A stretch of DNA of 64,000 nucleotides. Source: Sistotremastrum niveocremeum HHB9708 (taxonomy: Eukaryota; Basidiomycota; Agaricomycetes; Sistotremastrales; Sistotremastraceae). Position numbers and translations under genes: made by a program. Positions 10,985 through 48,191 of the stretch are shown here, one piece after another. The notes under the pieces were generated by a model. That model searched no databases. It was not told where the DNA came from and saw nothing but the letters and a program-made list of their open reading frames with translations. How positions within the stretch are numbered: the first letter of the stretch is position 1; every line of letters starts with the position of its first letter. The stretch spans positions 558,940 through 622,939 of the forward strand of contig KV419400.1 of the NCBI GenBank assembly GCA_001630475.1. Reading direction: 5' to 3'.

Positions 10985-13678
10985 ATGATCTCCACCGCTG
11001 CACGAGCACATAGACTCGCCTCGAGACGGCGTATACCTCTCTCTGCGTCACTTATTCGACGTTCATTCGCGACCCCAGCAGAGCCGCAGCGTCCATCCGA
11101 AGATCGTGAGCCTGTGAAGGGAGAGGCAGCGTCCAATGACGTTGAGAGCAGATCTGAGAAATCGGAGCAGTCTGCGTCGTCGAGCGAATCTTCATCATCA
11201 TCACTGGGTAACCCCCAGCCACGGAAGCACGACGAGAAGGGAAAGACTGTTGAGAAGGGTGAGAAACAGGGAGAAAAGGTGAGTCGCTATGCAGCTAGGA
11301 TGCGTGTACCCAGCTCAAATGACTTCAGCTCAAACCTCATGAGCCCCTGATATCTCAATATCTCAACGCTTTAAGGAAAGGATTAGATGATCTCGACGAT
11401 TCTAGCAAGACGCAGGGCCTCAAGAAGAAGCCAGACGCGGACGCCGACGAAAATCCTCCACCCGCTGGTCCCCAGAAACCGCGGGGGGCAAACGATGAAC
11501 CGCCTATCTTTCAGTCACCCCGTGGCACTCCCGGCGGAAAGGGAGGCCCCAGCCTTGCGCAAATGGCTATCATTATGGCTCTCCTAGCCTCCCTGTATGG
11601 CCTCAACTATTCTGACTCACCGCTATCGCGCGAGATCACATGGCAGGAGTTCAGAACAGCATTCCTCGATAAAGGTCTTGTCGACAAGCTTACCGTCGTC
11701 AATCGCACCAAGGTTCGAGTGAAACTGCACTCGAATGCAGGCGCTCTATATCCGAACGCCCCTTCCGGCGGCAACTACTACTTCTCGATAGGAAGCGTCG
11801 AAGCATTCGAGCGGAATCTTGACGAGGCCCAGCGAGAGCTCGGCATTCCCACAAATGAACGAATACCTGTCTCGTATAGCGACGAGATTTCCACCTTCGG
11901 TACCCTTCTTCACTTTGCACCCACCCTCCTGTTAGGTGGCTTGCTCTTCTATATCTCTCGACGTGCTAGTGGGTCATCAGGAGCAGGTGGCGGTCTGTTC
12001 AGCATGGGCAAAAGCCGGGCAAAACTATTCAATAAGGAAACTGACATCAAGGTCAAGTTCAAGGACGTTGCTGGAATGGACGAAGCAAAGGAGGAGATCA
12101 TGGAATTCGTCAAGTTCTTAAAGGAGCCGGAGAAGTACGAGAAACTTGGCGCAAAAATCCCTCGAGGTGCAATTATCTCGGGCCCACCGGGTACTGGCAA
12201 AACTCTTCTCGCTAAGGCGACCGCTGGAGAGGCCTCAGTACCCTTCCTCTCTGTCTCTGGGTCAGAGTTTGTCGAAATGTTTGTTGGTGTAGGACCGTCT
12301 CGCGTGAGAGATCTGTTCGCTTCTGCAAAGAAGCACGCACCATGCATCATTTTTGTCGATGAAATTGACGCCATTGGAAAGGCTAGAGGAAAAGGCGGGT
12401 CATTTGGCGGTAACGATGAAAGAGAGTCCACTCTCAACCAGCTTTTGGTGGAAATGGACGGATTCGGGACCAAGGAGTACGTTGTCGTGTTGGCAGGGAC
12501 TAACAGACCCGATGTTCTCGACCCCGCTCTCCTACGACCAGGACGCTTCGATCGTCGAATCGCTGTGGACCGCCCAGACATGTCAGGTCGCAAGGAGATA
12601 TTCCTTGTCCACCTCGGCCCTCTTCTACTATCGAAGGGTATAACAGACCGGGATCATTTCGCTCACAAGCTCGCAGTGTTGACTCCTGGTTTCTCTGGTG
12701 CAGACATCGCCAACGTCTGCAATGAAGCTGCATTACATGCCGCAAGACACGGCGCAGACTTTGTTGACGAAAAGAACTTCGAGAGTGCCATCGAGAGAGT
12801 GATCGCGGGGCTGGAGCGCAAGAGTAGAGTGTTGAGTAAAGAAGAGAAGAAGACCGTGGCTTATCACGAGGCCGGCCATGCCGTCTGTGGATGGTTCCTC
12901 GAACATGCCGATCCATTACTTAAAGTCTCAATTATTCCTCGCGGTGTGGGAGCTCTAGGATATGCTCAGGTATTCGCAGGTTCATCATTCGGTAACGGAA
13001 GTTGGCTGACTAGTCTTGACAGTATCTCCCTCCCGACCGTTATTTGTTATCTATTCCCCAGCTGGTGGATCGCATCTGTATGACTCTTGGCGGTCGTGTG
13101 TCCGAAGAAATTTTCTTTGGCACGGACCAAATCACCACCGGAGCCCAGGACGATCTTCAGAAGATTACTCGCATGGCTTTCGAGGCCGTTGCTAATTATG
13201 GAATGAACGGTGTCGTTGGACCTGTTAGTTATGGCGGCGGCGAGGGCGCACGGGAAGGCTTCAACAAGCCATTCAGCGAAAAGACCGGCGAGATGCTCGA
13301 CTTTGAAGTCCGCAAAATGATTAGGTGTGCAATACGCTTATTTTGCTGGGTCATATTGCTAATCCTTCGTAGTGACGCCCATCGTCGAACAACAGAGCTT
13401 CTGACCCGTAAACGGCAAGATGTTGAGAAGGTGGCTCAGCGACTTTTAGCGAAAGAAATCCTTACTCGGTTCGTCTCAGTATCCTTTGTGATAAAGGTCG
13501 CTAACAGTTTTGTTCCAGGGAGGATATGATTGCACTCCTTGGAAAACGACCATTCCCTGACAAGGATGATATGGATAAATGGCTTGACGAAGACGAAAAG
13601 AGCCCTGGCCCTGTTATTCCTCCTGCAGATGGTGCGCCCATACCTGTCGCAATGACCAGAGTATTGGGAGTTTCATAG
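10985..13678 (+). CDS. AFG3: Mitochondrial m-AAA protease subunit (AFG3/YTA12 family)
   Basis: An 830-residue FtsH-type AAA metalloprotease. The N terminus is Arg/Ser/Ala-rich with no acidic residues ([16 protein letters not shown]), as in a mitochondrial presequence. FtsH extracellular-type domain and two membrane helices (near ALLASLYGL and LLGGLLFYI) follow. Walker A GPPGTGKT is at about 383, Walker [10 protein letters not shown] near 439, the second region of homology at LRPGRFDRR, and the zinc motif HEAGH at about 611-615. Introns 11279-11328, 12970-13022, 13325-13372 and 13469-13518 each keep frame. The complex works in the inner membrane with its active sites in the matrix, degrading unassembled subunits and maturing proteins such as MrpL32 (family knowledge). 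Assignment to Afg3 rather than Yta12 is uncertain. The start was chosen because 10985 is the first ATG before the presequence. Confidence 0.93.
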
Positions 13679-28837: not shown

Positions 28838-29798
28838 TTATATGAAAGCTTTTTCGAAGATATCTATTCCTATGACATCTTTGAGCGGCCCTAAAGCCGT
28901 CCTGAGCCATAGGCGTATCATCTGCGCTTCGGTAGCTGCCAGGCGCACGACTGTGCCATGCCCGCCGCAAGAGCTTAGTGACCAAATGAGATCCATTGGA
29001 GAAGGCGATTGGAATTGTGAAACATTAGCCAGGTCGTTGTTTAGTGAATTGACTATGTTTTGGACGTCGCTCCCGAAGAGAAAGAGGGTCGCGAAGCAGG
29101 AGTATGGATATAACCGACTCTCCAAGGGACGCGGACCCAAAGGCGGCAAATTTGATTGTGAATCGTCCAACAGCAATACATCTTTCGCCACTCGTTTCCC
29201 TGACATCCAAAATTCGTTGGTGCTGCGATAACGTGTGAAAGACCACTGCTCGCCGAGAGAAAGACGTCCTGAAGTGATCCAATCTAGGACAACGACCGTA
29301 GAGTCTTCATGGAACTGAAATTTCTGACTCTGGTTATACTGTGCATCCTTGAAACACGTCACGAATTCCGGTAGGAGGAAGAACGAGCCTCTTGATGCCA
29401 CGTTGACATGCAACGCCTGAGTTGTTAAATCAGAGGCAGAAAGAGAGCTCGGGCGGTAGGAATGAGGACGTGTTTTGAACACTTTAGTGGATCCCTGGCA
29501 ATGCGATTGAGAGCTTGTCAACCACCGAAGATAAGCAAGGAACGTGATGCATTACTTGTGTAAGAACGACCAAACCAGCTGCTGCTCCTACATCGATTTC
29601 CAAATCAATGTGGTCCCCACCAACTAACCCGCCGCCATAGCTCATAGCGTACACGATTGCAATGGGTTTGGAAGCAGATGTCTTGGGCGAAAGAAGCTTG
29701 AGAGGATATGTGTACGACATCTCTTCGAATGCCACCTCTGTTCCGTACGCCCTGAGAACGGCCTTGCCTTTTCCATGAACCCTCTGAGCCTTCTCCAT
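28838..29798 (-). CDS. ureD: Urease accessory protein UreD
   Basis: 299 residues from two exons; the intron is 29495-29555. Conserved UreD/UreH features run in order: LKLLSPK near the N terminus, YGGGLVGGDHIDLEIDVGAAAGLVVLTQGSTKVFK (read across the splice), the ALHVNVASRGSFFLLPEFVTCFKDA strand region, VVLDWITSGRLSLGEQW and the C-terminal LWLRTALGPLKD. Length matches the family. UreD binds apo-urease and, with UreF and UreG, delivers nickel to the active site. No other urease gene is in this window. The start codon is only about 50 bp from the end of a LINE, which replaces the promoter it probably shared with SEC39. Confidence 0.92.
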
Positions 29799-29849: not shown

Positions 29850-32835
29850 GGTGGTGGTGGTGGTATTAGACGGTACTGGGTCCCCATATGGGAACGACCG
29901 GGTCTGTGTCACCCCGAAGGGCCACAGGCTACGTAGCATGGGGACCATTGAAGGGCGGAAACCCAACTTCGGTGCCACGCACTACTACGCAACAGATCTA
30001 CCTACAACTAATATATACATGCAGCAGAAGCAGAGGGAGCCGTTAAAACCTTCCGCAGCAAACCCAGTGGGTGAATCCACAGAAGGAAAGGTATCCCCCC
30101 GCAGTAACAGGACCTACAAGCGCATCGCAACCTAACTACGAAACACACAGAATTCATTGCCAGTGAGGCATAGGCGCAGAGACAGGGGAGAGAACCAGTA
30201 ATATTAAGGCAGAAGGTTTACAAAGAAGTTACAACGGAATCAGAGGGACATAAAGTGGGACCTGTTTAAAGCGACGAAAAACAGCGCAGGTGTACGCAGC
30301 CACAGCAGGCAGCAGGGCTTCCTGATTGAGAATGGAAAGTAGGAGAAAATCAAGATTTTGTCTGGCAAAAGGGTGGAGAAGGCCTGGGTCAATGAGCAGT
30401 GCCGCGCGGAGGAAATCCCGGCGCAGAAGGAGCAGCTCGTGGTCGGCCATGCATCCAAGTAGGGCATGACTCTCATCCTCCACTACAGAGCGACAGAAGC
30501 GGCAGAGGCGGAATTCACGTGGTAGGCGAGGGTGCCCGCGGATAGCACGACGCAGTTCTTCGATTGCGAGAGTGTGTGCAGAGAAGAGGAGTTTTGTGAG
30601 TGCCACCCGGTGGTTGTAGTTAGGTAGGGAGAGGTATGAGCGGAAGCGAGGAGCGAAGTCGTGGCGTTGGCAGTTACGGGTTGCACGACGCGACTCGATA
30701 TCGAGGAAGCCAGTGATGAGGTTGATCTTTGTCAGCTGATTGGCAGCATCACCCTGAAAGCGATGTAGGGACGGGCGAATTGATTTGCGGACCGAGTCAA
30801 TATGAGCATGGGAGAGATTGGAGGGGTCAAGGGGCACAAGGAGCCCAGCGCGGGAGCACATAATAACAAGGTCACGAAACCAACCTCGTCTGTGTGGATG
30901 AGATTTGGCCAGAGCGATTGAAGACATGAGAGCGTGATGCGCGGGACGGACGGGAGGGATGGAGAGCAGGAATTGTAGATATCGCAGGCACAGCTCAACG
31001 CGGCGAAACAGAAGTGGCCAGAGACCAGTTTCTGAGAAGAGGAGACAGACAGGAGCAAATGAATTGACTCCAAGAAGACGTCTCAAGTATGTATGCTGAG
31101 CGGCAACGAGAGGGCCAAGCAACTCGTCGGAGACATCGGGACAAATCTCGCATGCATATGAGAGGTAAGGGTCCACAAGGGATTTGAAGAACATAATGCC
31201 ATCATCAACATCGAGTGAGGCGACATCATTGGCAAGGGAGAAGATACGGCCAGCGACAGCACGCGCTTTCAGCGCCTGCGCCTCAGCATGCGGCTGAAGA
31301 ATGTCCGGATGATCAGAGGTAAGCATAGCACCCAGATATGTCGCATCGAGGCACATTGGCAGTGGCTGTCCATCAAGAAAGAAAGGGGGGTAGGGGGAGG
31401 GGGTAGCCGCGAATGGTGTCCAGTAGGACTTTCCAACATTGATTGTCTGGAAATTGAGCAGGCCCCAGGCGGCGATGGCATCAAGGTGTGCCTGGAAGGC
31501 GTAAATAAGAGTGGTGAGTGCGACAAGGTCGTCAGCCTGCGCCACGTAGTTGACCCGCAGGGAGCCCAGTGCGACGTCACCATCAACCGCAGGGAGCACG
31601 AGATCAGATAAGAAGAGGATGAAAAGGAGAGGAGATATTGGATCACCCTGTAGAATCCCTCGAGACGAGGTGAAAGTGTCTGAGGTCTCGCAGCCAAGAC
31701 GGGCATAATACAGGAGCTCATCATAGACCATCCTGAGCCAGTCAAAGATGGGCCCGCGGACTCCCCAGTTCCACAGTTTCATCCAAAGCGCTTCACGAAC
31801 GGTGGACGGGAAGGCGTTAGAAAGATCGATGAACGCGACATAAAGCGGTTCATTGCGTATACGGGCTTGGTCAATCGCACATCGCAGTGTGAAGAGATTG
31901 TCTATAGTGCGAGCAGCAGAGCGGAAGCCATTCTGGGCGTGCGGGATGCGACCAGAGTCCTCGGCCCAGGAGGATAGACGAGCTGCGACCAAGGTCATGA
32001 GCATCTTTAAAGCACAGGACTCCAGTGAGATATGACGGTAGCTGTTGGGATCACGCGGATCTTTCCCAGGCTTGGGAACAGCAACCATGGTCGCCATCAA
32101 CCAGGGAGTCGGTACGGTCTGCTGTGTAATGCAGTCGTTGAATAACTCCAGGAGCAATTCGTTGTCCTGCTCCAGTAGCTTTGAGTATGTGAGGCGATCA
32201 GGGCCGGAGGCAAGATGAGCGCTTTTCTCCATGAGTATGCCTTTGGCATTGGCGACATCGGCTTAGGAGAACTCGTCGGTGAACAGGGGGTGGTTCCACC
32301 CTGCCATAGGGTCATACGAAGCAGGGGGGATCGCCGAGCTGAACAGGAAAACGGCATCGAGCAGGCCTTCAACGATAGGGTTGGCAATATTGTCAGGGAG
32401 GTTGATACGTTCGGCCATGATGGACATAATTGCAGTGAGGGAGACTGAAGCAGGGAGAATACGACTTTTCGGACGTAAGCGAGCTTTTGCCCACTTCCAG
32501 AATCGAGCAAGGGACTCCCGTGCAGCATCAAGCATCTCAGCGCGTTTCGCAGCGTAATGCGCACGAAGGAGCTCACGGCCACGATGAGAAGCGAGAGAAT
32601 GATCGGGGCTGGGGGAGGACGAACGAGAGGAAGAGGGAGAGAAGTGCGGCAGATCGTCGATATCAGGACCGGGTTGTGCAGTTGGCACATTCTGCTTCGC
32701 ACACGACTGAGGAGGGGTATGACGTTCCCGAACGTTCGACGAAATGCACGGTACAAGCTCGGGGGAGGGTGTAAAGTCTCGAGGGTGTAAGGGTGCAACG
32801 AATGGGATATCGTGTGACGAGCGGTCTCGGCGCCT
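29850..32835 (-). mobile_element. 5'-truncated non-LTR retrotransposon (LINE)
   Basis: A minus-strand LINE copy of about 3 kb fills the space between the start codons of ureD and SEC39. The 3' end is marked by a short CCA-type simple repeat (TGG units on the plus strand at 29847-29866) after a ~380-bp 3' UTR. The reverse transcriptase frame is 30229-32232. The same frame continues upstream to about 32830, broken once by a TAA at 32263-32265. No AP endonuclease is present, so the copy is 5'-truncated in the usual LINE way. I could not find a convincing target-site duplication. The ends are approximate to about 20 bp. One stop in roughly 870 codons suggests recent insertion. Confidence 0.85.
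30229..32232 (-). CDS. LINE reverse transcriptase frame
   Basis: A 667-codon open frame. RT motifs appear in order: ASGPDRLTY (motif 0), AVPKPGKDPRDPNSYRHISL (motif 2), AQNGFRS (motif 3), FIDLSNAFPS (motif A with Asp), LQGDPISPLLF (motif B) and AQADDLVAL (motif C with both Asp). The usual aromatic residue before ADD is Gln here. After the thumb, the C terminus has a zinc-knuckle-like CRFCRSVVEDESHALLGC. No RNase H domain is evident. The frame would need an upstream start for the full protein, and the one in-frame stop upstream makes this copy probably non-autonomous. It is listed separately because it is the longest uninterrupted coding part of the element. Confidence 0.85.
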   Translation of the reverse strand: MEKSAHLASGPDRLTYSKLLEQDNELLLELFNDCITQQTVPTPWLMATMVAVPKPGKDPRDPNSYRHISLESCALKMLMTLVAARLSSWAEDSGRIPHAQNGFRSAARTIDNLFTLRCAIDQARIRNEPLYVAFIDLSNAFPSTVREALWMKLWNWGVRGPIFDWLRMVYDELLYYARLGCETSDTFTSSRGILQGDPISPLLFILFLSDLVLPAVDGDVALGSLRVNYVAQADDLVALTTLIYAFQAHLDAIAAWGLLNFQTINVGKSYWTPFAATPSPYPPFFLDGQPLPMCLDATYLGAMLTSDHPDILQPHAEAQALKARAVAGRIFSLANDVASLDVDDGIMFFKSLVDPYLSYACEICPDVSDELLGPLVAAQHTYLRRLLGVNSFAPVCLLFSETGLWPLLFRRVELCLRYLQFLLSIPPVRPAHHALMSSIALAKSHPHRRGWFRDLVIMCSRAGLLVPLDPSNLSHAHIDSVRKSIRPSLHRFQGDAANQLTKINLITGFLDIESRRATRNCQRHDFAPRFRSYLSLPNYNHRVALTKLLFSAHTLAIEELRRAIRGHPRLPREFRLCRFCRSVVEDESHALLGCMADHELLLLRRDFLRAALLIDPGLLHPFARQNLDFLLLSILNQEALLPAVAAYTCAVFRRFKQVPLYVPLIPL

Positions 32836-32844
32836 AACGACCCA

Positions 32845-35800
32845 ATGGCTGAGGAACTCTGCCTCAAGTGGAATGACCTTCACGACAACGAAATTTCATC
32901 TGAAAATATCCAATCGGTCCTCAGTCCTGTTCAAGACGACCTGTGGGTTGCTGCAGCTTGTGCAGACCGACTCCTAGATGACACACGTGTTCAGCGCGAA
33001 CTGCTGGACCTGGGTTTGAGCAGGACTGAATCCGCTCCCCAGCGTGTGCAAGATGCCATCCTCACATATGTACCCCCAACGGAAGACCATCAAGAAGAGG
33101 AGGACCCATCCCTTACACCTTCTTCTCAGGACGCCCTCACCATCCATTTTCGCCACAATGACATCGACAGACAACTATGCCGCATTCGTGCACTCCTTTT
33201 GGACAGACTGGATCGACTATTAACTTACCAAGAGATGGTCGCGGCACATCAACTTCAGATGGATTCTAAGGAGGAGACTGGAGATGCCTGGGAAGACCCA
33301 GACGATCCATGGGCTGATCCAGACGAAGAAGGGACAGTCACCAAAGAAGACCGGGATTTATTCTCGCTTCCAACCTTTCTCATATTGGACATCTCCCAAG
33401 CTTCTTTTATCCTGGCCTCCTTGGGCCATTTTAAGGCTCTAGAGGTTCTCTATGCCAGATATGCCTCGAGTCTTCGGCCATTTCGATTCCAGATCTTGGA
33501 ATACATCCCAAACCACATTTCCCCCACCCACTATCGAAACCTGCTACCAGCTTGTGACCCATCGAGCGACTTCGAATTATTCCAAGAAGCCAAACCTTGG
33601 CGAGAAGTCTTGGATTGGGTCGAATCGGAGACTGTGCAGCGAGCTACCCAGCTTCCTGCGTATCTACCAACTGAAGAAACCCCTACAGACACATCCGAAC
33701 TGGCGAAGCCTCTATCAGGAGAGCAGCTCTCCGCTTGGTACAAAAAGCGCGTGGAAGATACCGAAACTACATGCGGGATGATAGGCCATTGCCTTGCTCT
33801 GATACAACACGGTGCATCACAGAACGTCCCGGATCTCGACCAACTTGGTGAAGACCTCAATCTTCTCGCTCGACTTGTGTACGATGCTCCTCAGCCCGAC
33901 GCCAAACTGGTTCCTCCAAATTGGACGTTGGCTGCATGGCGGCAACTGGAGCCCCTGGACGTCATTCGAGCATATCTTGCATATGCCACCCCGGAAAATT
34001 TCGCTACATGCATCAGGCGTCTGGTCATGCCTTATCTATTCGTTCTGGAATCCCGGAAAGAGCGACAACAACAGCCAGATCCAGAATTGCCGAAGCGTCT
34101 ATTGTACCAATATATACTCCAAGCGCCTCTTGAAACGGTGGCTGTCATTCTTGACGCTTCGAAGCCAACATTGCCTGCAGCTCAACGACTGATCAAGGAC
34201 GATCAAGACATTGCTCGTCTGGCCCTAGCATGCTTGTATGGTAGCAACAGTACATCCGAATGGTCGACCATGAGCAGGATATTTGAGTGCTTGCCAGTAT
34301 GGTCAGACTCTTATGAAGGAGATGAAGACGCCGCAGATACAACTCTGGCATCATTGGGCGATTTCGTCACCCCTTCAACAGCAGGCGTTACGACTTCGCC
34401 CACTGATCTGTTGATTTTTTTCACCCCTCTGCCAGAAATGGCGCTCTCACGAGCATTGGATATTCTGGATGTCCATCTCGAATCGGGCGAAATTTTTGCT
34501 CGGTGGGGTGTTCCTGCGCCCCTGCGCTGGTTCCTTCAAAGTTACAACGATGTGAAGGAGCAGCGTGCATGGGCGACCCGAATGGTTCGACGTTCAGGAC
34601 CCGAGCTTCCGGAAAACTTGGACGAGTGGAGAGACTTGCTTGATGACATGTTGAAGCTTCTTAAAGGGGGCGACGGCCCTCTCAAGGGCGCCTTTGGTTC
34701 TCTGTCCCGCGAGGAAGTCACCCAAATATTCTTCGGGGGTGTCCTTGCGTCTGGTGGTAAGTTGATATATTTCGCATGTCATTATGCTCAAAAGCTTACT
34801 TCCGTCTGTGAATAGATTTCGATATTGCCAGAAAACTGCTTGGTTCTTTGCGCGGAGACCGAGCGCTAGGGCCAAGTGTGATTGAGAACCTATGCCTCAC
34901 GGCTTCGCGCGAATTTTATGACAACGCAAGCTCAGGCAACCTTTATCAAGGAGATATGCGCTTAGCTTACGATTGGTATACCGGTCGTCTTTTGTTGTGT
35001 AAACAGTGCTGATCTAGCTTGCAGTTTATCGGTCGCCTCTCAATCGCCAGTAATACTGAAGGAGAAAGAATTCATCGAAGCTACCAGTCGGATTTGCTCT
35101 TTCAACGTACTTTCGCGATCGGGATTACCCATGACTCCTCTCGAAATCCGCCTTGTAAAGGATCGTCTGAGCCTCATATCGCAGGTTCTTTCTGGTACCG
35201 ACGATGCTTACAAACACTCTCAAGTCATACTGGATCTAGCGGATAAGCTTGGATTCAGAGGAGATATGGGTTCTCGGATCAAGGTCTTTGCGATGCTAGG
35301 TGATGCTGCCCTCCAGGCTGAAGATTTCGTCGCCGCATCTCATTCCAGCGAACAAATGGTCGAAGCTGTTCACACTCTTCAGAAACACCCCGAGGGCGTA
35401 CCCCAATCCTCAATCGACGAGGCAGTGGAAGTTTGTTGGCATTTTTGTTTCCAGCTTGGTCGACAAGCGGAGTTCCGAGATCTGGAGACGAAGCTGAAAC
35501 TTCTAGGACAAGCTTTACAACTGTGTCCCTCTGGAAATGCCGTCGATGTACTGAACGTCTGGCGTCGAGTCGAAGCCGAACAGACCCAAATTCGTCGACA
35601 GATGACAAAGAGTCGAGAGGCTAGACGTGATCGACGACGTCCCGAGAAAACTTTGGCAGAGCTGACTGCTTCATCGATACGGGACCGGTTAAGCAGTTTC
35701 AAGCCTGACTTGACACATTCACACCTTGTTCCCACTGAGGCTGCTGCTATGGCAAGTAGGACACTAGGAAGGGTTACAGCCAGCTTGCCATTTGGGGTTG

Positions 35801-35928
35801 CTCGTGGACGTTCTGATTTGTCTCAAGATGAACCAAGAGCCAGGTCACAATCTCCCGACGTGTCAGCCCAAGCTCGGCAAGTTCTGTCGAAAGGAATTGG
35901 CTGGTTGATTGGTGGGGACGACGAGTAG
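32845..35928 (+). CDS. SEC39: Sec39-domain protein, Dsl1/NBAS-type ER tethering subunit
   Basis: 991 residues from three exons; introns 34757-34815 and 34976-35024. The protein is almost all helical. Its C-terminal two thirds match the fungal Sec39 domain: RWGVPAPLRWFLQSYNDVKE, QRAWATRMVRRS, LKGAFGSLSREEVTQIFFGG, EFYDNASSGNLYQGDMRLAY, KEKEFIEATSRICSFNVLSR and MTPLEIRLVKDRLSLISQVL. Sec39 is the ER-side scaffold of the Dsl1 complex, which tethers COPI vesicles with Dsl1 and Tip20; NBAS is the animal counterpart. The start at 32845 lies about 10 bp from the 5' end of the LINE, so its leader now probably includes LINE sequence. An Arg-rich tail (TKSREARRDRRRPEKT) follows the domain. Confidence 0.85.
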
Positions 35929-38624: not shown

Positions 38625-39233
38625 TCATAACAGTATTCGTTCTGGCGTCGGCGGCCAATACGAGCCAGCTGCATGCTGGAGAGCCACCAGGGGAATCGCG
38701 CCGAATATATGTGTCAAGTCGTGCTCGTTCTCTGCCATCCACCAAAGCGGCGGGAGATATCGAGAGACTCGTGTTGTATCTGATGCCGTGTTGTCGTCGA
38801 GCATCAGACCCAGCATCCCTGGAATCACCAACTGCAGCAAGTAGAAGATGCTGCTCAGCGCCCCTGGAACGCCTGGGCCGCCAATCAAGAGTTCTCCCGA
38901 AGGATCGTATATGGTCTTGAACGCTCCAGCGGTGAACATCTCTCGGTACTTGTCCTTCTCTGTTGCGAACGTGAATGGGCTCGTGGGCAAGATGATGGAG
39001 GCTTTGGTTCTGGGATGTTGGATGTGGAATAGGATGGTGTCTCTCTGTTTCTCGACCTCCTTCCAGCCGTGCTTTTCGACGAGTGTTGTTTTGAGATGGA
39101 CGAGAACGGGGGTGGCTGAAGCGTAGGCCTTTGTCCGAAACTCGAAGGGTTTGCCATCAAAGGACATGGGAGCGTTGCGCTGAGCATATGCTGGTCGGAA
39201 TCGAACGTAGAGGTCTCGAATAGCGTCGCTCAT
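38625..39233 (-). CDS. Unrecognised 202-residue protein
   Basis: A single-exon frame of 202 residues from ATG at 39233. It contains mixed alpha/beta-like text with a well-conserved look (FRPAYAQRNAPMSFDGKPFE, HLKTTLVEKHGW, ASIILPTSPFTF) and one hydrophobic stretch (GALSSIFYLLQLVIPGMLGLML, given as seen near 38790-38855). No signal peptide. I cannot assign a family. Codon use resembles the neighbours and the start lies 40-60 bp after a plausible leader, so I regard it as real. It may have more exons than modelled at its 3' end. Confidence 0.55.
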   Translation of the reverse strand: MSDAIRDLYVRFRPAYAQRNAPMSFDGKPFEFRTKAYASATPVLVHLKTTLVEKHGWKEVEKQRDTILFHIQHPRTKASIILPTSPFTFATEKDKYREMFTAGAFKTIYDPSGELLIGGPGVPGALSSIFYLLQLVIPGMLGLMLDDNTASDTTRVSRYLPPLWWMAENEHDLTHIFGAIPLVALQHAAGSYWPPTPERILL

Positions 39234-40473
39234 GGTGGCAGTTGGGCTAGGAACTCATGCATAGGCATTCTTATAAAGCGTTGTATCGAGCGTGGCAGTG
39301 TAACCCTGGATCCCTTTTGTCTTGTCGTCAATGTTGATCCGCGACGGAAGAGCAGTGTTGCGGTGCAGACTAGACTTGCTTTGTATTGTCTTGTAGTCAA
39401 TCCCATCATAATAACCTTCTCATGGGTACCCAGCCACCTCCGATGAGCTACGGCATCTCATCGCTATTACTAGATGAAAGCGCACGGAAGTCACTACAAC
39501 ATCGAATAGCATGAACAATCGTTGGTGGAGTCCACGAGACAAGGTCCTAAAGACGGGGCGACATTTTCTGCACCAGGGCGGCGACCAGAGGCTAGAGGAC
39601 AATGCGTGCCATTGCGTGGAGAAATGACGAAGAAGGTCAAGTGGACCACTTCCTGAGAATCAGTCTGCACACATAAAATTCAAAAGACATGGAGGGGGCT
39701 CAAACATGCATCACTTGTAGGGGGTCGCTGCATCAAGTGACAGAAATTTAATTACTGCAATTCGTTGAACGTGGGCGCCGTCGGACTCGACGAGCGGAAT
39801 CGGGATCGGAAGTCTGAACCCCTTCAAGTTGATGAAAGTAACCAACGGCGCGATTACTCTTATTGGTCTGCAGCCTCAGCTCGACGTTGAACATGGGGCC
39901 CGCCCAACAATTTACACCCGATCCTAATCAATGTAACTGAAGTCCGTCTCATCCATTTGACACCGCATCCACTGGGCCATCCGCTCTGGTACATATCTCG
40001 TCCTACACGTCAGCGACGACTCATTTCTCATGGTCCAGCGTTTAGCCCTGTTCGTACAGTAACGGACTGACTCGTATATTGGCCTTGGATACTACTGGGA
40101 AATACAATTCGGGCGACGTCGCGTCTGCTTCAGCTTCAGAGTCTGCTCTTGCTTATGGTGCGTGAAACTAACTAGGCGTTCCCAACCTTAATCCAATTGA
40201 TTTTTTTCGGTTTCGCTACTTGTTCAGAAGCACGATGCTGTGCGATAACTCACTTGTCAACGTCTTTTGAGAAGAAACTGCATGTCCAAAGTGTCGCTCA
40301 GACAAGAAGCTCGGCGGCTCCTACTACTTTTCTCTATGGAAACGTTCAGTTCAATCCCCCTTCAACTCATGCTTGCACCGCTCTCGCTTCGTGCGAATTC
40401 CCGCTGTACGAATGTCATATCAACCAGCGGTCACCCGTCACCTCTCTTTCCCTATCCACCACCATCTCGCTCT
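39234..40473. other. Gene-poor interval upstream of the repeat array
   Basis: 1,240 bp without a credible coding exon. Short frames here have no supporting motifs. The last ~250 bp (40200-40473) turn pyrimidine-rich toward the first repeat. If the array is transcribed from the left, its promoter should lie here. No TATA box or Pol III A/B boxes were identified. Confidence 0.5.
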
Positions 40474-41353
40474 CACCTGCTTAGCAGGGCTCATCGTCCG
40501 CCGGACAAAATCCACAATGGCTGCCAGACATTATGTGCTGGGTCAGTGACAGTGGCACGGGACACACCTAGGCTTCGGTCTCGTGTGTCCTCCACTGTCC
40601 GCCGTTATGTGGAGAGCCTAGTGAGAGCTTGCGCACGGTTACATTCCCCTCACCTGCATTGCAGGGCTCCCCGTCTTCTAGACAAAATCCACAATGGCTG
40701 CCAGACATTATGTGCTGGGTCAGTGACAGCGGCACGGGATACACCCAGGCTTCGGCCTCGTGTGTCCTCCGTTGTCCGCCGTTATGTGGAGAGCCAAGAG
40801 AGAGCCGGCGTAACCTATCCACCTCACCTGCTTAGCAGGGCTCCTTGTCTTCGGACGAAATCCACAATGGCTGCCAGACATTATGCGCTGGGTCAGTGAC
40901 AGTGGCACGGGACACACCTAGGCTTCGGTCTTGTGTGTCCTCCACTGTCCGCCGTTATGTGGAGAGCCTAGTGAGAGTCAGCGCTTCCTCCCCCCGCCTC
41001 ACCTGCCTAGCAGGGCTCACCGTCCGCGGACAAAATCTACAATGGCTGCCAGACATTATGTGCTGGGTCAGTGACAGCGGCACGGGACAAAGCGAGGCAT
41101 TGGCCTCGCCTGTCCTCCGCTGTCCGCCGTTATGTAGAGAGCCTAGTGAGAGCCGGTGCGACCCCCTTCCAAGCCTCGCCTGCCTAGCAGGGCTCCCCGT
41201 CCTTGGACGAAATCCACAATGGCTGCCAGACATTATGTGCTGGGTCAGCGACAGTGGCACGGGGCACAACGAAGCTTCGGCTTCCTGTGTCCTCCACTGT
41301 CCGCCGTTATGTGGAGAGCCTAGTGAGAGCCTTCCCAACCCTCATCTCAGCCT
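40474..41353 (+). repeat. Five tandem ~175-bp units
   Basis: Units begin at 40474, 40651, 40825, 41000 and 41177, each at CACCTGC (CGCCTGC in the fifth), so the period is 174-177 bp. Each unit has a conserved core of about 131 nt (40488-40618 in unit 1) and a variable pyrimidine-rich spacer of about 30-45 nt. The most constant blocks are ACAATGGCTGCCAGACATTA, GCTGGGTCAG and GTCCGCCGTTATGT. A degenerate sixth start (CGACTAC) follows at 41354. The period is not a constant multiple of three and the open frame changes between units, so protein coding is unlikely. Differences between units are concentrated in paired positions. Confidence 0.95.
40474..41353 (+). ncRNA. Candidate array of structured non-coding RNAs
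   Basis: Each core can fold into a closed structure: a basal helix GGCTC/GAGCC, a small hairpin GTCC/GGAC, a helix TCCACA/TGTGGA, a hairpin CCAG-ACA/TGT-CTGG, and a long arm made of CAGTGG/CCACTG, GGACACAC/GTGTGTCC and AGGC-TTCG-GTCT. Paired changes keep helices closed: GTCC/GGAC becomes GTCT/AGAC in unit 2; TCCACA/TGTGGA becomes TCTACA/TGTAGA in unit 4; CAGTGG/CCACTG becomes CAGCGG/CCGCTG in unit 4; the arm tip becomes GCGAGGC/GCCTCGC in unit 4 and GAAGC/GCTTC in unit 5. Wobble pairs occur only if the plus strand is the RNA. I find no match in memory to snoRNA, snRNA, SRP, RNase P/MRP or hammerhead consensus. Expression is inferred, not shown. Confidence 0.55.
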
Positions 41354-42048
41354 CGACTACCAAACGAGCGCTGATGTGATCACTCCTGCAAGATCACAAA
41401 AGCTAGTTATTTTCTTAGTATGGGGCTGTCCGTTACATCTGCTCGATTCATCGGTAAGTCATCTTTTATGCTTTTTATCATCTTCCTTATGCATCTCCAG
41501 AGCCAGGTTGTTCCATCAACACCGGCTGGACGGTCGACCTTTAAGCCACTGCCGCTCATTCAAGCGCATTGGCAGGGTACGCCGTTCCTATATTGATTCA
41601 CATGTCCACGAATGATAGCTTCGTTCATTGTTGTACTTAGTCTATTGAACGCTGATTCTATGTATCAACCGTGATATGCATATACATCATTTTGTCGAAC
41701 CACTCCATTCAGAATGATCATACAGCTTAGCCGGCATGTTCGAATTCAGAGGTTATCTTAGTCTGTAGAGACCCCAAGCTATGGCCCACCGGCTCAGATT
41801 AGTCTTGCCTCAATCGACGATCAGTCGTCGCCGTCGTTGCTGCGTTTTGCAGTACTTTATAAATGTCTTAAACAACCTCGTGTGCGTGTGTACAGTATGT
41901 CTACTCAGGCTCAGCGGCACTGCGTTCGCAGGTCATCACAGCTATAGCTAGCATCACTATGGTCAAAATATTTTTGCCTACATGGTACGAGAAAACGTAT
42001 TAGTATATATGCCACACTAGTGTACAGAATAATCCTATGCGATACATA
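41354..42048. other. Interval downstream of the repeat array
   Basis: 695 bp without a supported gene. An intron-like segment at 41454-41500 (CG|GTAAGT to CTCCAG, 47 nt) suggests that a spliced plus-strand transcript continues beyond the array. The remainder to the SNF12 stop is AT-rich with no recognised feature. Confidence 0.4.
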
Positions 42049-43669
42049 TCATCTGCCTGCTTCATGCAATCTGTTCAAAGCGCCAGCTACTCGTAACCCC
42101 TCTTGGATAGAAACAGCCTCGTCAATCCAGGGTAGTCTAAAGAACTCGCTATTTTTCAGATCGTCCTCTCTGACTCCCTGCTCATTTCCGAGGACCAAAT
42201 CAAGATCTCTGGATTGTGAAGCTAACCAATCTTGAATGAACGTTTGAGGATTCGCAGATAAAGCATTCATAAACTCTTTCTTTAACTTCGCGTTTCGGAT
42301 ACTTTGAGCAGCTTGAGCGATCTGAAACATCATGATAAGTATATGTATCACACGCTGAAGCCTTTTGCCATACTTGATCGTCGAGGGCTGTGATACGTTT
42401 CGCAGAATCGCTGACCATGCTTGTGCTGATGGTGTTGAATTTTCCTTTCAAAAACGTATCTTCGGTTTCGATTTCTATATCATAAGCCTGAATTGCAGCA
42501 GGACATTCCGGATCGACCCTATGGATCGAAGATAAGGCTCTGCCGACGAGAAAGAAAGTAGTACTCACTGGATGGTATAGGGCAGTAGCACAGGGTCTGG
42601 TGGTAATAGACAGCTGTTGACCATTTCAGGAAGCTGCCCGAACTGGAAAGCCTCTAACCCGAAGATCTAGGACACGTCGATGAGATTAAGCCCAAATTTG
42701 TAAAAAGTAACTCACAGCTTGAAGTTTGGCATCTGCTTTAACAACTCTTCGGTCGACCTTGTCTTGAAGTTGATTGATCTTGATGTAATTCCAAAGTGCA
42801 GAGATGACGGTGACTCTTGGGGCTTCTTTCAATTGAAGGATGCTTGAGAGTTGTGGTGCCAATTTGTAGCGTTCAGGGGTGTGTTCAAGGTGTAAAACAA
42901 CGCGTGCAGCGATAGACATATCACCACGACGCTTGATCTCGAAACCGTCTTGATCCGGGAGACCCGGATTGCGTCGCCACTCCAGATCCATTCAGTGATG
43001 AAGTGGCCCAAAAGTATCACGTACTCACCTCGACAACGTTAGCGTCACCGTATAACGAAGGGTCGCGGTCCATTTCCACCGTTAAAGATTTTATGAAAGA
43101 GGAGAATTTTCGGGGTGACTGCTCTATTGGACGTGAAGGTTCGGTCTTTGCGAGACATGGTGCGTGTGAGGGGATCATACTGAGTAGGAACGCGATAACT
43201 CACACTCGGGAGCAGGCGCCCCTCAACCTTGAAAGACCAAGATGGTATGCCCTGTCCTGTCTCGAAATCCAACGAATTGGGGGGCAAAGGAGTATCATCT
43301 GAGGCTTGCCACGACTGTCCACTGCACGAGTGTGATAAGAAGATCCTGAGCTTTCGGGTGACCTATTGAATGTCGCGCGTTGAGCGGGACGATGGCCGTG
43401 AAGAACATGGCCTACGGTGATGGGTTTGTGTAGCATTTCTTGCATCTCCACTTTCTTCCGCGTGACAGTCCAGTCCATCTTCCGTTCTATCTCTAGTAAT
43501 TGATTGTATAGGGCGGCGTCCTCGAATTCTGCACCCAGGGACGCTGGCAACGTTCTGTCTGTGATTTTCCGCTTCCTAATTTATATTTATTCAATGCCGA
43601 AGAGTGTTACATCAGGAAAACGCACTTGGCTGCTCTGATTGAGTCTGGAGGGACCGCGTTCATGTTCAT
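42049..43669 (-). CDS. SNF12: SWI/SNF or RSC subunit with SWIB domain (SNF12/RSC6/BAF60 family)
   Basis: Eight exons; introns 43576-43625, 43322-43362, 43146-43203, 42980-43028, 42667-42715, 42519-42568 and 42322-42373 give 423 residues in frame. The family text includes DWTVTRKKVEMQEML, SFIKSLTVEMDRDP, a SWIB/MDM2-type domain (GDMSIAARVVLHLEHTPERY, LSSILQLKEAPRVTVISALW, NYIKINQLQDKVDRRVVKAD) and a C-terminal helical region ending FFRLPWIDEAVSIQEGLRVA. The subunit is a scaffold of ATP-dependent chromatin remodellers in the nucleus. Whether it sits in SWI/SNF or RSC cannot be decided here. The start (MNMNAVPPDSI) is 68 bp from the start of CGR1 on the other strand. Confidence 0.9.
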
Positions 43670-44363: not shown

Positions 44364-47300
44364 CTAAATCTGCCACGAACTGTCCGTCTCTCCCTGCGCA
44401 AGGAAAGGCTTATCCAACCCCAACACCGCAGATTCACACAGCGGACAACTGCTCGCCAACAGGTCGTCCAACTCTTCTCTCAACTTCACTACTCTCTTCG
44501 AATCTTTCGTATGATCTGTCTTCTTGTCTCCGCCCCAGCCTCCCACGACGCTCGCCAAGGATTCGGGAACAATGAGATCTCGAAGTTTATCTCCCGCCGA
44601 GAGCATCCCTCGGCCAAGAGTTCCCGCTGCGTTGACAACCGTGCGGCCATTTGGCACAAAGTTGGCCGAGAGTAAGGACCGACCTCCTCGTACACTGCCG
44701 TTTGTGCCATCAACTGAGCCTTGACGCTCATTAGACGGCTTTGCAGTAGCTCGCATGAGCTCTGTCTGAAGGGCTAACATACGTCGGAGCGTAGGAGCAG
44801 GCAGATATTCCTTAACCTGATGTATGCACAGATAAGGAGTCGAATCCTCTCAGCAATAACCACTGCACTTACAATGCCAATGAGACAATCCGCATGGAAG
44901 GCGTGTTGACACGGAAAGACGTAAAATTGTCTGGAGAACAGTGGATACGAACATTTTGTGCACCGTTCATTGATATCCAGAGTGACGAATCGGTTTTTGA
45001 GGTTTGCGATGTCTTCTTTGATGGCTTCCGCACTTCGAGTCGCTTCATCCATTTCGGCTTTGAGGGTCTCGATATGATTGCTATAGCCCTCCAGAGCATT
45101 GCAAATTTCTTCCTTGAAGTCATCTATGACGACAAAGTCGGGGAAGAAAGGCAAAATATCTTCGATCTTGATGAGATCGGTATTCTCAAGGAATTGGATT
45201 GCTCTAGAATAGGGGTTTAAGTCAGAATTCTCAGGCAACTCACAACGCCACCTACGTTTTGATATCCTGCTTGTCTTGCACAACATATTTTGCAATTTTG
45301 AGCCAGAGTTTCTTCCTCAACGGCTGATCATCCTCGGGCTTGTCAGCGTTTAGTTTCGCTAGCTCAACATCTCCCTTCTCTAAAGCTAGGTCAACACTGT
45401 TCTCCCACAATCCCATCTTTGAATAGATATGGACGCAGGGTTGTAATCGTCCATATTTTTTGCATAACCGGAGAGTGTAATCCAGGTCGTAATATGGCTT
45501 TCCAGTGAATGGATCCGAAGGAGCAGTGGAGAGAAATCGCAAAAATGGACCGTCGTCAGTGGATTGGGAGGATGCATAGAGCGTTGCGAGAAGATTGTGG
45601 ATCGTCGGCGAAATATTCCCAGTCTCAAAAATAACATGTGTAAGGAATCGAATGGCATAGTTTGGCGATAACGGGTTGCGGGGGGCACGCTGAAGACGGA
45701 GGAGAGCGGGAATCAGTCGGATGGGATCGAGGGCAGGTTGCTTCATCCAACACTCTACTGTTTCCTTTGGTGAGTTGATGATGAGGACGGGTGCAAAGCG
45801 ATAATACAGCTCCAAGTTGTTCTGTGCTATACATGAGCTCTTTTCAAGGGATGGTTAGCTTGCACTGACCTGCCGATTAAGGACATCAATCGCCTGCAAC
45901 CATTTCTCTTCCAGGACCCAGTGTTCAACTACACGCTCATGATCCCCAACTATAGTGGCAAAGTCTAGGAAGACATCCGTTCGGCCGTGGCCCTGAATAA
46001 GCTCATAAACAGTTGTGCGATCCAGGTTCGCCTAAAAGATTGATGAGTGAACAGGACCATGTGACAAGGCAGATGTTTACCTTGTATGTTTCGAAGAACT
46101 GTTTGAGTTCATCTTCCAGAAGGCTGCGCTCAGCCCGCAGATTATCAACGTCCTGTGTTAATGACTCCGAAGCCACAAGATCGTCTAGCTCATTGCACTT
46201 GCTCAAATAAAACTCCACGAGCCAAGTTGCAAGCATCATTCTCTGGATGAGATCCTAGAATATCCAGGCATGAGCTTGATGAATCACAGAATTGTGACTT
46301 GACCTACTGTTTTCTTCGTACGTTCAAGTCTGGCGACGAGGTAGTAACGCAGTGCGTCTCGTTCTTTAGCGTCAAGGAAACGAAGCACGACTTCTTCGAA
46401 AGGGGTTGAACTTTGAGCGTAAGATTGAGCTGATTGAATATATCGCCCTTCTAGAAAGAACGCGTTTGCTTGCGATGCTAAGACGAGATCTCTTTGACGG
46501 AGACTCTACGCATTAAATATGAGCTCATTAGGCGTATACGAGAAGAGAGGCCAACAAACCTTCGCATAATGCAGGGCTTGAGAGTGCATTCCTTTTTCAA
46601 GGTAAGCACTCCAGACGTCGCGATCTTCGTTCAGCACCCGGAACTCAAATAGTGAGCGATCCGTATAGACCCAGTAGGTTTTCCCGACAAGGTCGGTCGT
46701 CAATCCGCGAACTTCTTCCCCTAGTTTCTACGTGATATAAGACACAGAATTTTGAGCAGCGCGCAGATGAAACCTACTAGAGGTAAAAGTTCCTCATGAG
46801 TCACCCGTTCGTCCAATCGACTGACCGCCACAACCCGGTCGTAGTATAGCAGGATGAAGTGAAATTCAGTCACAGCTATAGAAAGGGGAACGGGAGTTGT
46901 GGTTGGGGATTGTGGAGGTGTGTCATCGGTCGGCGAGAGCGTTGGGAATGGCATTAATTGAGCGCCGTCTATAAAATCGTCGACGCCAGAGGTGAAATTT
47001 AAGGTTCCATGATATATCCCAGGAGCTGGGGTATACGTCTCAGATGGCGTCAAAAACAGGGAAGAGTTTTACTACCTGTAAGCCAAGCCATCGATTTTGG
47101 TAATGACTGTGCCTGATTGGGACGCGAAAGCCAAAACTGAAGCTCCGAATATTTGATATCGCCCGGTAGCTCGAGAATTTCTATTGAGATAGTCAATAAT
47201 GATCTTAAGACTATGAGATGGGACTCACTGGGAACGGATTCACGGTATTTTGAAAAGATTGCATGAAACACTCTCCCCACCTCGTCTGAACGTCGATTCG

Positions 47301-48191
47301 GTGTACCGGTAAACTGATATATTCGCGAGGGCGTGGTGGCAATAATGAGACATTTCTTGGCGTCCGAAGGCGGGAAATATTCGAACTTGATTCCAGTTAT
47401 GGGCGGACGTTCGGGAATCGTATACACATCCTGGAGGAACCTCTCTTGACCCCGGAAGAAATCGTCTTCGGCGTCTACACAAGCTTCGTATATGATGCCG
47501 TCTCTTGCACCAATCAGAAACTCCTTGGTAGACGTTGACGATAATGACGACATGAGTCCCTGCCGATTCCAAGCCACGCTCTCGATAATCATGTTGAAGC
47601 CCTTGAGCCGTTTTGCCTTCTTCCATCCCTTGAAGATGTACCATACCTCTCCTTGCAGCGTGGAAACAAGAAGGTGGCGTCCTGACGGGTCGAGAAAGAG
47701 CTTATAAATCGTAGTCTCCTGAGGCTTCTTGGGGATTTGTATCCGCGTAATCTGCTCAGCTTCCTTGAGCTCGAGCATGAGGATCATATTGCTTGCGAGA
47801 CCCATGGCGACGATGTCGGATGACACGACAAGAGATATCAGGGGGGCAGGCATGTCATACTGAACTCGACCCAGGTCGAATAGCGCGGGAGCCGACGATG
47901 TTGCGCCTGCAGAGAAGCCTCTTTCGAGCTGGAATTCATTCAGAATGCTATAATACGGGTCAGTTATGGTGTGCGCACTGGTGTGAGCAGCTCTGCATTG
48001 GCGTCTGGTCGAGTGTCCACCGCATTTCCGAAAGGTGGAGGCTCGAAACCCTGGAAGCCAAGTTGGGCAAGTTGAGCGTTCGTTCGTTCACGGTTATGCG
48101 CAGGCTCCGAATGTTCTACATCTGAGCAAAAGGAGATGCAGTTAATTGTGCTGACAAGGAAGAAATGAAGATGCTTACAATCGTCGAACAT
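44364..48191 (-). CDS. VPS18: Vacuolar sorting protein VPS18/PEP3 (HOPS/CORVET core)
   Basis: A multi-exon gene. The N-terminal start is MFDDYVEHSEP with introns 48122-48178 and 47929-47978, the second giving LTP|LERGFSAG. A beta-propeller region follows (LERGFS ... FDLGRVQYDMPAPLISLVVS, LFLDPSGRHLLVSTLQGEVW, SVAWNRQ, EFLIGARDGIIYEA, ITGIKFEYFPPSDAKKCLII). The central part is alpha-solenoid with clathrin-type repeats (KYGRLQPCVHIYSKMGLWEN, VDLALEKGDVELAK). The C terminus has a coiled coil and a RING-like finger (CTKCSYPLF, FPCQHAFHADCL, then CPLCESAV after an insertion). VPS18 is a shared core subunit of HOPS and CORVET, tethering endosomes and vacuoles. The insertion between the two halves of the RING is Ser/Gly-rich. 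About twelve exons; not all inner junctions were resolved. Confidence 0.92.

Follow-up and report, generated by a model that had tools for sequence, protein, structure and literature searches.

Five tandem units on the plus strand of a contig from the fungus Sistotremastrum niveocremeum HHB9708 are very probably copies of a conserved structured RNA. They lie within a 64,000-nucleotide stretch of DNA (contig KV419400.1, positions 558,940 to 622,939), here called the window, whose own numbering is used throughout. The five copies share a plus-strand fold, carry the compensatory substitutions by which a conserved structured RNA is recognised, and retain an invariant core. If the reading is correct, the array represents a structured noncoding RNA outside Rfam 15, from a fungus.

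Organization of the array

By TRF, a tandem array with a period of 177 bp and 5.1 copies was located at 40463-41354, within which the units proper occupy 40472-41327, with start-to-start spacings of 177, 174, 175 and 177 (Table 1). An earlier note on this DNA had described five units of about 175 bp; the count stands, with the units themselves corrected to 153-154 nt and the value near 175 belonging to the spacing of 174-177. In a MAFFT alignment the five units show a mean column identity of 92%, with pairwise identities of 86.3-95.4%, and each contains the 11-mer CAGACATTATG exactly once, giving five occurrences across the window where 0.03 would be expected. Mean pairwise identity of the linkers is 56% versus 48% for shuffled sequences, the 22 nt 3' of unit 5 being counted as a fifth linker; constraint is on the units, and hardly any is on the linkers. 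A covariance model scan found no sixth copy elsewhere in the window. With filters off, the next score after the five units in 39200-42300 was 12.3 bits (E 0.022, minus strand, within the array) and the top score outside the array was 10.1 bits (E 0.074, minus strand, 39486-39540), both of which we take as noise.

Table 1. Units, linkers, unit 1 helices and neighboring features, in window coordinates (column numbers of pairs refer to the unit alignment)
Feature	Coordinates	Strand	Description
Unit 1	40472-40625	+	154 nt; single-unit fold z -3.7
Unit 2	40649-40802	+	154 nt; z -3.4; P4 pair 28-32 C-G to U-A; P7 pair 82-123 U-A to C-G, next to a G.U; one P1 pair lost (A.A)
Unit 3	40823-40975	+	153 nt; z -3.5; P4 pair is U.G; one inner P6 pair broken (A.C)
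Unit 4	40998-41150	+	153 nt; z -4.5; P5 pair 42-140 C-G to U-A; P7 pair 82-123 U-A to C-G; distal arm of altered sequence with AUUG loop, 13 bp retained
Unit 5	41175-41327	+	153 nt; z -3.5; P9 pair 100-109 G-C to A-U; P1 A-U to G.U; distal arm shifted in register, 13 bp retained
Linker, units 1-2	40626-40648	+	23 nt, pyrimidine 61%
Linker, units 2-3	40803-40822	+	20 nt, pyrimidine 55%
Linker, units 3-4	40976-40997	+	22 nt, pyrimidine 73%
Linker, units 4-5	41151-41174	+	24 nt, pyrimidine 58%
Unit 1 P1	40472-40476/40621-40625	+
Unit 1 P2	40477-40480/40484-40487	+
Unit 1 P3	40488-40492/40614-40618	+
Unit 1 P4	40496-40499/40503-40506	+
Unit 1 P5	40511-40521/40601-40613	+	bulged UA at 40606-40607
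Unit 1 P6	40524-40527/40538-40541	+	plus inner pairs
Unit 1 P7	40548-40555/40592-40599	+
Unit 1 P8	40559-40567/40583-40591	+
Unit 1 P9	40570-40573/40578-40581	+	UUCG loop
FtsH-type AAA protease match	11323-13080	+	ordinary cellular gene
UreD match	28841-29551	-	ordinary cellular gene
Reverse transcriptase frame	30232-32262	-	677 codons; RVT_1, E 1.3e-21; LINE-like; about 8 kb from array
Sec39 match	32818-35925	+	ordinary cellular gene
SWIB/MDM2 domain open frame	42686-42991	-	E 8.2e-17; strand runs towards array
Vps18 beta-propeller match	47053-48087	-	ordinary cellular gene

A common fold with three stacked junctions

One structure of 58 pairs suits all five units, with standard pairs in 96.9% of the 290 cells. 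RNAalifold, run unaided, also returned 58 pairs, differing in the inner P6 pairs, adding 75-129 and omitting 98-111. The fold comprises three stacked three-way junctions (P1/P2/P3, P3/P4/P5 and P5/P6/P7), each carrying a short side hairpin in its 5' strand, after which the P8-P9 distal arm ends the rod. The single junction of the earlier layout is thereby corrected to three three-way junctions. A CAC bulge separates P7 from P8, and the P5/P6/P7 junction is able to close fully, with pairs U51-A74, G52-C73 and G75-C129 possible in all five units.

Folded singly, the units beat their shuffles by 3.4-4.5 standard deviations on the plus strand and 2.1-3.5 on the minus strand; folding 40472-41353 whole gave a z of -9.4 (20 shuffles). 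When 40400-41400 was folded as one RNA, P5-P9 held at probabilities of 0.81-1.00 and P2 ranged over 0.14-0.99, while P1 fell to 0.00-0.04 in every unit, and P3 (0.00-0.03) and P4 (0.00-0.04) were weak in all except unit 2, where they reached 0.82 and 0.94. In such a fold near-identical copies can exchange partners. The lowest-energy folds of slightly trimmed units showed P1-P4 as modelled only in units 1 and 5, the trimming of the ends having cut P1 in units 2, 3 and 4. The basal part of the fold model, with P1, P3 and P4 weak in the 40400-41400 fold, should be regarded as unproven.

We also observed that the 5' strand of P5 (40513-40519) can pair alternatively with the P6 loop (40529-40537), with the UA bulged either way, and that equivalent sites occur in each unit. 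Units 1, 2 and 5 can form all seven of these pairs, unit 4 does so using one U.G, and in unit 3 one of them is A.C; when unit 1 was folded at 11 increasing lengths, the alternative hairpin was the best only at 66 nt. Since the 5' strand of P5 has two pairing options, its 3' partner or the P6 loop, the module may be a switch.

Paired substitutions and chance levels

All of the paired substitutions quoted in the earlier note are present in the alignment and pair table. Among the 58 pairs, 44 are invariant, five vary on one side, four are double-changed and five depart solely via unpaired cells. The double-changed pairs sit in P4, P5, P7 and P9 (Table 1), and P1, P2, P3 and P6 have none. When the 3' letters were shuffled, four double-changed pairs were reached in 24 of 500 trials, five double-changed cells in 5, the covariation score in 5 and the paired percentage in none; the count of 10 further pair types was not above these shuffles, being reached in 427 of 500. 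Sliding the partners by 1-3 columns left 30-47% of cells paired and 0-2 double-changed pairs. The same substitutions placed at random gave a mean of 0.42 double-changed pairs (P = 0.00035, 20,000 trials); restricted to the variable paired columns (22 of 116), they gave 1.50 (P = 0.029, 20,000 trials), a modest figure that comes, as does the whole covariation sample, from five paralogous units at a single locus. The scarcity of broken cells had P < 0.001 in both models.

Nine cells are unpaired. The distal arm accounts for seven, with three at 98-111, a further three in unit 4 and one in unit 5; the remaining two are 4-151 (unit 2) and 59-65 (unit 3). Read in its own register, the distal arm nevertheless has 13 of 13 standard pairs in every unit, with differing letters, and its tip loop is UUCG in four units and AUUG in unit 4, consistent with the earlier remark that loops are often UUCG. 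We consider this arm the most telling evidence, because unit 4 has swapped the arm sequence yet kept its length. Paired cells on the plus strand include 22 G.T versus 4 A.C; three invariant pairs supply 15 of the G.T cells, and three of the four A.C cells lie in the distal arm and disappear in the units' own register.

The earlier proposal that selection, and not chance, keeps the helices gains support from the 13-bp arm in all five units, the excess of G.T over A.C and the plus-strand UUCG loops, and the paired changes are best read as selection on the helices of a plus-strand RNA. The array could instead have no RNA function, being a DNA satellite or mobile-element remnant with palindromes synchronized by templated hairpin repair, or a coding repeat. 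Palindrome-templated repair can produce paired substitutions in DNA, a LINE-like reverse transcriptase lies about 8 kb off, and two plus-strand open frames cross the array. Such repair would, however, copy letters without wobble, against the 22 G.T and 4 A.C cells (15 of the 22 G.T being in three invariant pairs), and would not keep unpaired core bases constant. The unit spacings do not preserve a common reading frame across the array, and neither of the plus-strand frames has a Pfam match, so we rejected a coding repeat; absence of any RNA function is, overall, very improbable.

An invariant core at the inner junction

Of the 22 unpaired core columns, 20 are invariant, compared with 4 of 14 among column 97, J3/4 and the hairpin tips (Fisher P 0.0002, with the classes set after the alignment had been seen and J3/1, invariant in 1 of 2, omitted). 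The invariant positions around the inner junction comprise the P6 stem, J5/6, most of J6/7, the CAC bulge, the UA bulge and the A-rich J4/5. An invariant core with variable tips suggests more than simple hairpins, namely a contact site at the inner junction, which the bases there are likely to form. The contrast between core and tips also shows which bases merit mutation first.

An invariant unpaired core with variable peripheral loops is likewise the pattern of catalytic RNAs, and head-to-tail units of about 175 nt would suit a tandem, new self-cleaving ribozyme whose junction core cuts a multimer to unit length, as in hammerhead retrozymes or Neurospora VS RNA. The array has no Rfam match whatever, known ribozyme families included, and a cleavage site in the linkers is unlikely because these are barely conserved; self-cleavage is only putative, and we judge this explanation highly unlikely. 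Also improbable is a new RNA class with a catalytic or ligand-binding three-way-junction core, present in five tandem copies in this fungal lineage.

Searches for known families and relatives

Rfam 15 families gave no match in the whole window at the gathering cut-off, in keeping with the earlier statement that no RNA family with this layout was known. At E up to 5, 40401-41400 yielded a single match, to the SAH riboswitch on the minus strand, scoring 17.4 bits where the cut-off is 37 (E 1.6). No Rfam ribozyme match marked a known ribozyme core in the repeats, and a snoRNA or other catalogued RNA was set aside for want of an Rfam match. ARAGORN found no tRNA or tmRNA gene in the window, which removes a tRNA reading. 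The basidiomycete SRP RNA (PMC4605306) was dropped for lack of an Rfam match.

Searches for relatives covered viral, prokaryotic, plasmid and phage collections, and their null results carry no information on fungi. Six exact patterns run on viral contigs returned at most short matches, 23 in one search, 4 in another and none in the others. The covariance model gave one match among the 23 (L011, 18 nt, E 8.9) and none among the 4, and lacking its support we took these as chance. Two patterns run on prokaryote genome contigs gave no match in one search and two bacterial matches in another, which were rejected, having neither a covariance model match nor an Rfam match. Unit 1 used as a distant-mode query found nothing among plasmids and phages. 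No comparable array was found among the matches listed in open-licence PubMed Central, as judged from titles and the starts of abstracts. With five copies and internal covariation, a covariance model can be built from one locus, which would make the existence, spread and age of the RNA testable at once on other fungal genomes.

Genomic surroundings and the probable transcript

The array is flanked by a minus-strand open frame at 38628-39254, which has no Pfam match, and by minus-strand frames that include the SWIB domain; the only long plus-strand frames between these flanks are the two that cross the array. A fungal genome is consistent with the Sec39, Vps18 and UreD matches and with the shortness of the introns. 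No pol III B-box pattern occurs on the plus strand of 39300-42050, and A-box-like matches there lie only outside the array. Linkers of 20-24 nt leave no room for separate upstream promoters and a B-box is lacking, and a single common transcript would therefore be likeliest.

Just downstream of the array, at 41454-41500 on the plus strand, is a 47-nt intron-like sequence (GTAAGT...CTTAT...CAG) with a chance probability of about 0.13. It alone satisfies a strict pattern; a loose pattern had one plus-strand match against 1.3 expected. Weakly, it might mark a spliced host transcript.

Introns could also lie within the array. The linkers and their flanks would then be introns of 41-45 nt (GUGAG...CUCAC...CAG), P1 and P2 would act as splice signals instead of helices, leaving a mature RNA of five 132-133-nt modules closed by P3. 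The stretches between units 1 and 2 (44 nt, 40621-40664) and units 3 and 4 (43 nt, 40971-41013) do read GTGAGAG...CTCAC...CAG, and a mechanical search for introns joining open frames of the window gave twelve candidates of 43-96 nt, both of which favor structured exons. The pattern is broken in the other two inter-unit stretches, however, and variation in P1 is confined to the two columns most needed for splicing: unit 2 has lost the T of GT, and unit 5 the branch-like A. Splicing also leaves the invariant P2 sequence CTGC unexplained, and we give structured exons scant credence.

A proposed multivalent noncoding transcript

Our preferred mechanism, which we advance tentatively and at somewhat less than even confidence, is a noncoding RNA transcribed from the plus strand that carries one partner-binding module five times over. 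The array would form part of this transcript and supply five independent RNA modules of about 154 nt, each folding by itself into the rod of three stacked three-way junctions that ends in P8-P9. The distal arm would be maintained for its length and stability rather than its sequence, and the inner junction of each module would bind the same protein or other partner. Five modules per transcript would thereby allow multivalent binding, like the repeated modules of some long noncoding RNAs. Transcription, the partner and multivalency as the cause of the five copies are all inferred.

The closest rival, itself unlikely, is a polycistronic precursor, in which host nucleases would free five units from one transcript as separate small RNAs of about 154 nt. 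Each unit is able to close by its own basal helix P1, conservation drops at the unit ends, and the linkers drift yet stay alike in length. On the other hand, P1 shows no double change, one of its pairs is broken in unit 2, and the full-length fold does not favor it; the linkers showed no conserved signal past the bases immediately following P1; and there is no tRNA, snoRNA or other Rfam match.

Comparison with known systems

According to PMC8216456, a fungal covariation screen reported 17 RNAs from 1371 genomes, all Ascomycota, high-quality Basidiomycota annotation being unavailable at that time. PMC5640933 describes 15 fungal structured-RNA motifs, and a term search of its main text returned none of the words basidiomyc-, agaricomycet- or tandem. 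As here, both screens (PMC8216456 and PMC5640933) identified fungal structured RNAs via sequence comparison.

Several copies of one element per locus or transcript, read as repeated modules, are common to the array and to the Firre RRD, which PMC4820808 presents as a local repeat domain of a long noncoding RNA. The array differs from Firre, Xist and roX in that its transcript and partner are hypothetical. The Xist A-repeat and roX are further repeat-domain long noncoding RNAs, all three being mammalian or fly, and to our knowledge none of them has a three-junction module like that of the array.

Retrozymes and hammerhead repeats also comprise copies of a small structured RNA, as the array does, although the array has no Rfam ribozyme match. 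Neurospora VS RNA (PMC6707401), like the array, occurs as copies of a small structured RNA. The VS RNA likewise has three three-way junctions, with a side hairpin on the 3' side of its middle junction, whereas all three side hairpins of the array lie in the 5' strand.
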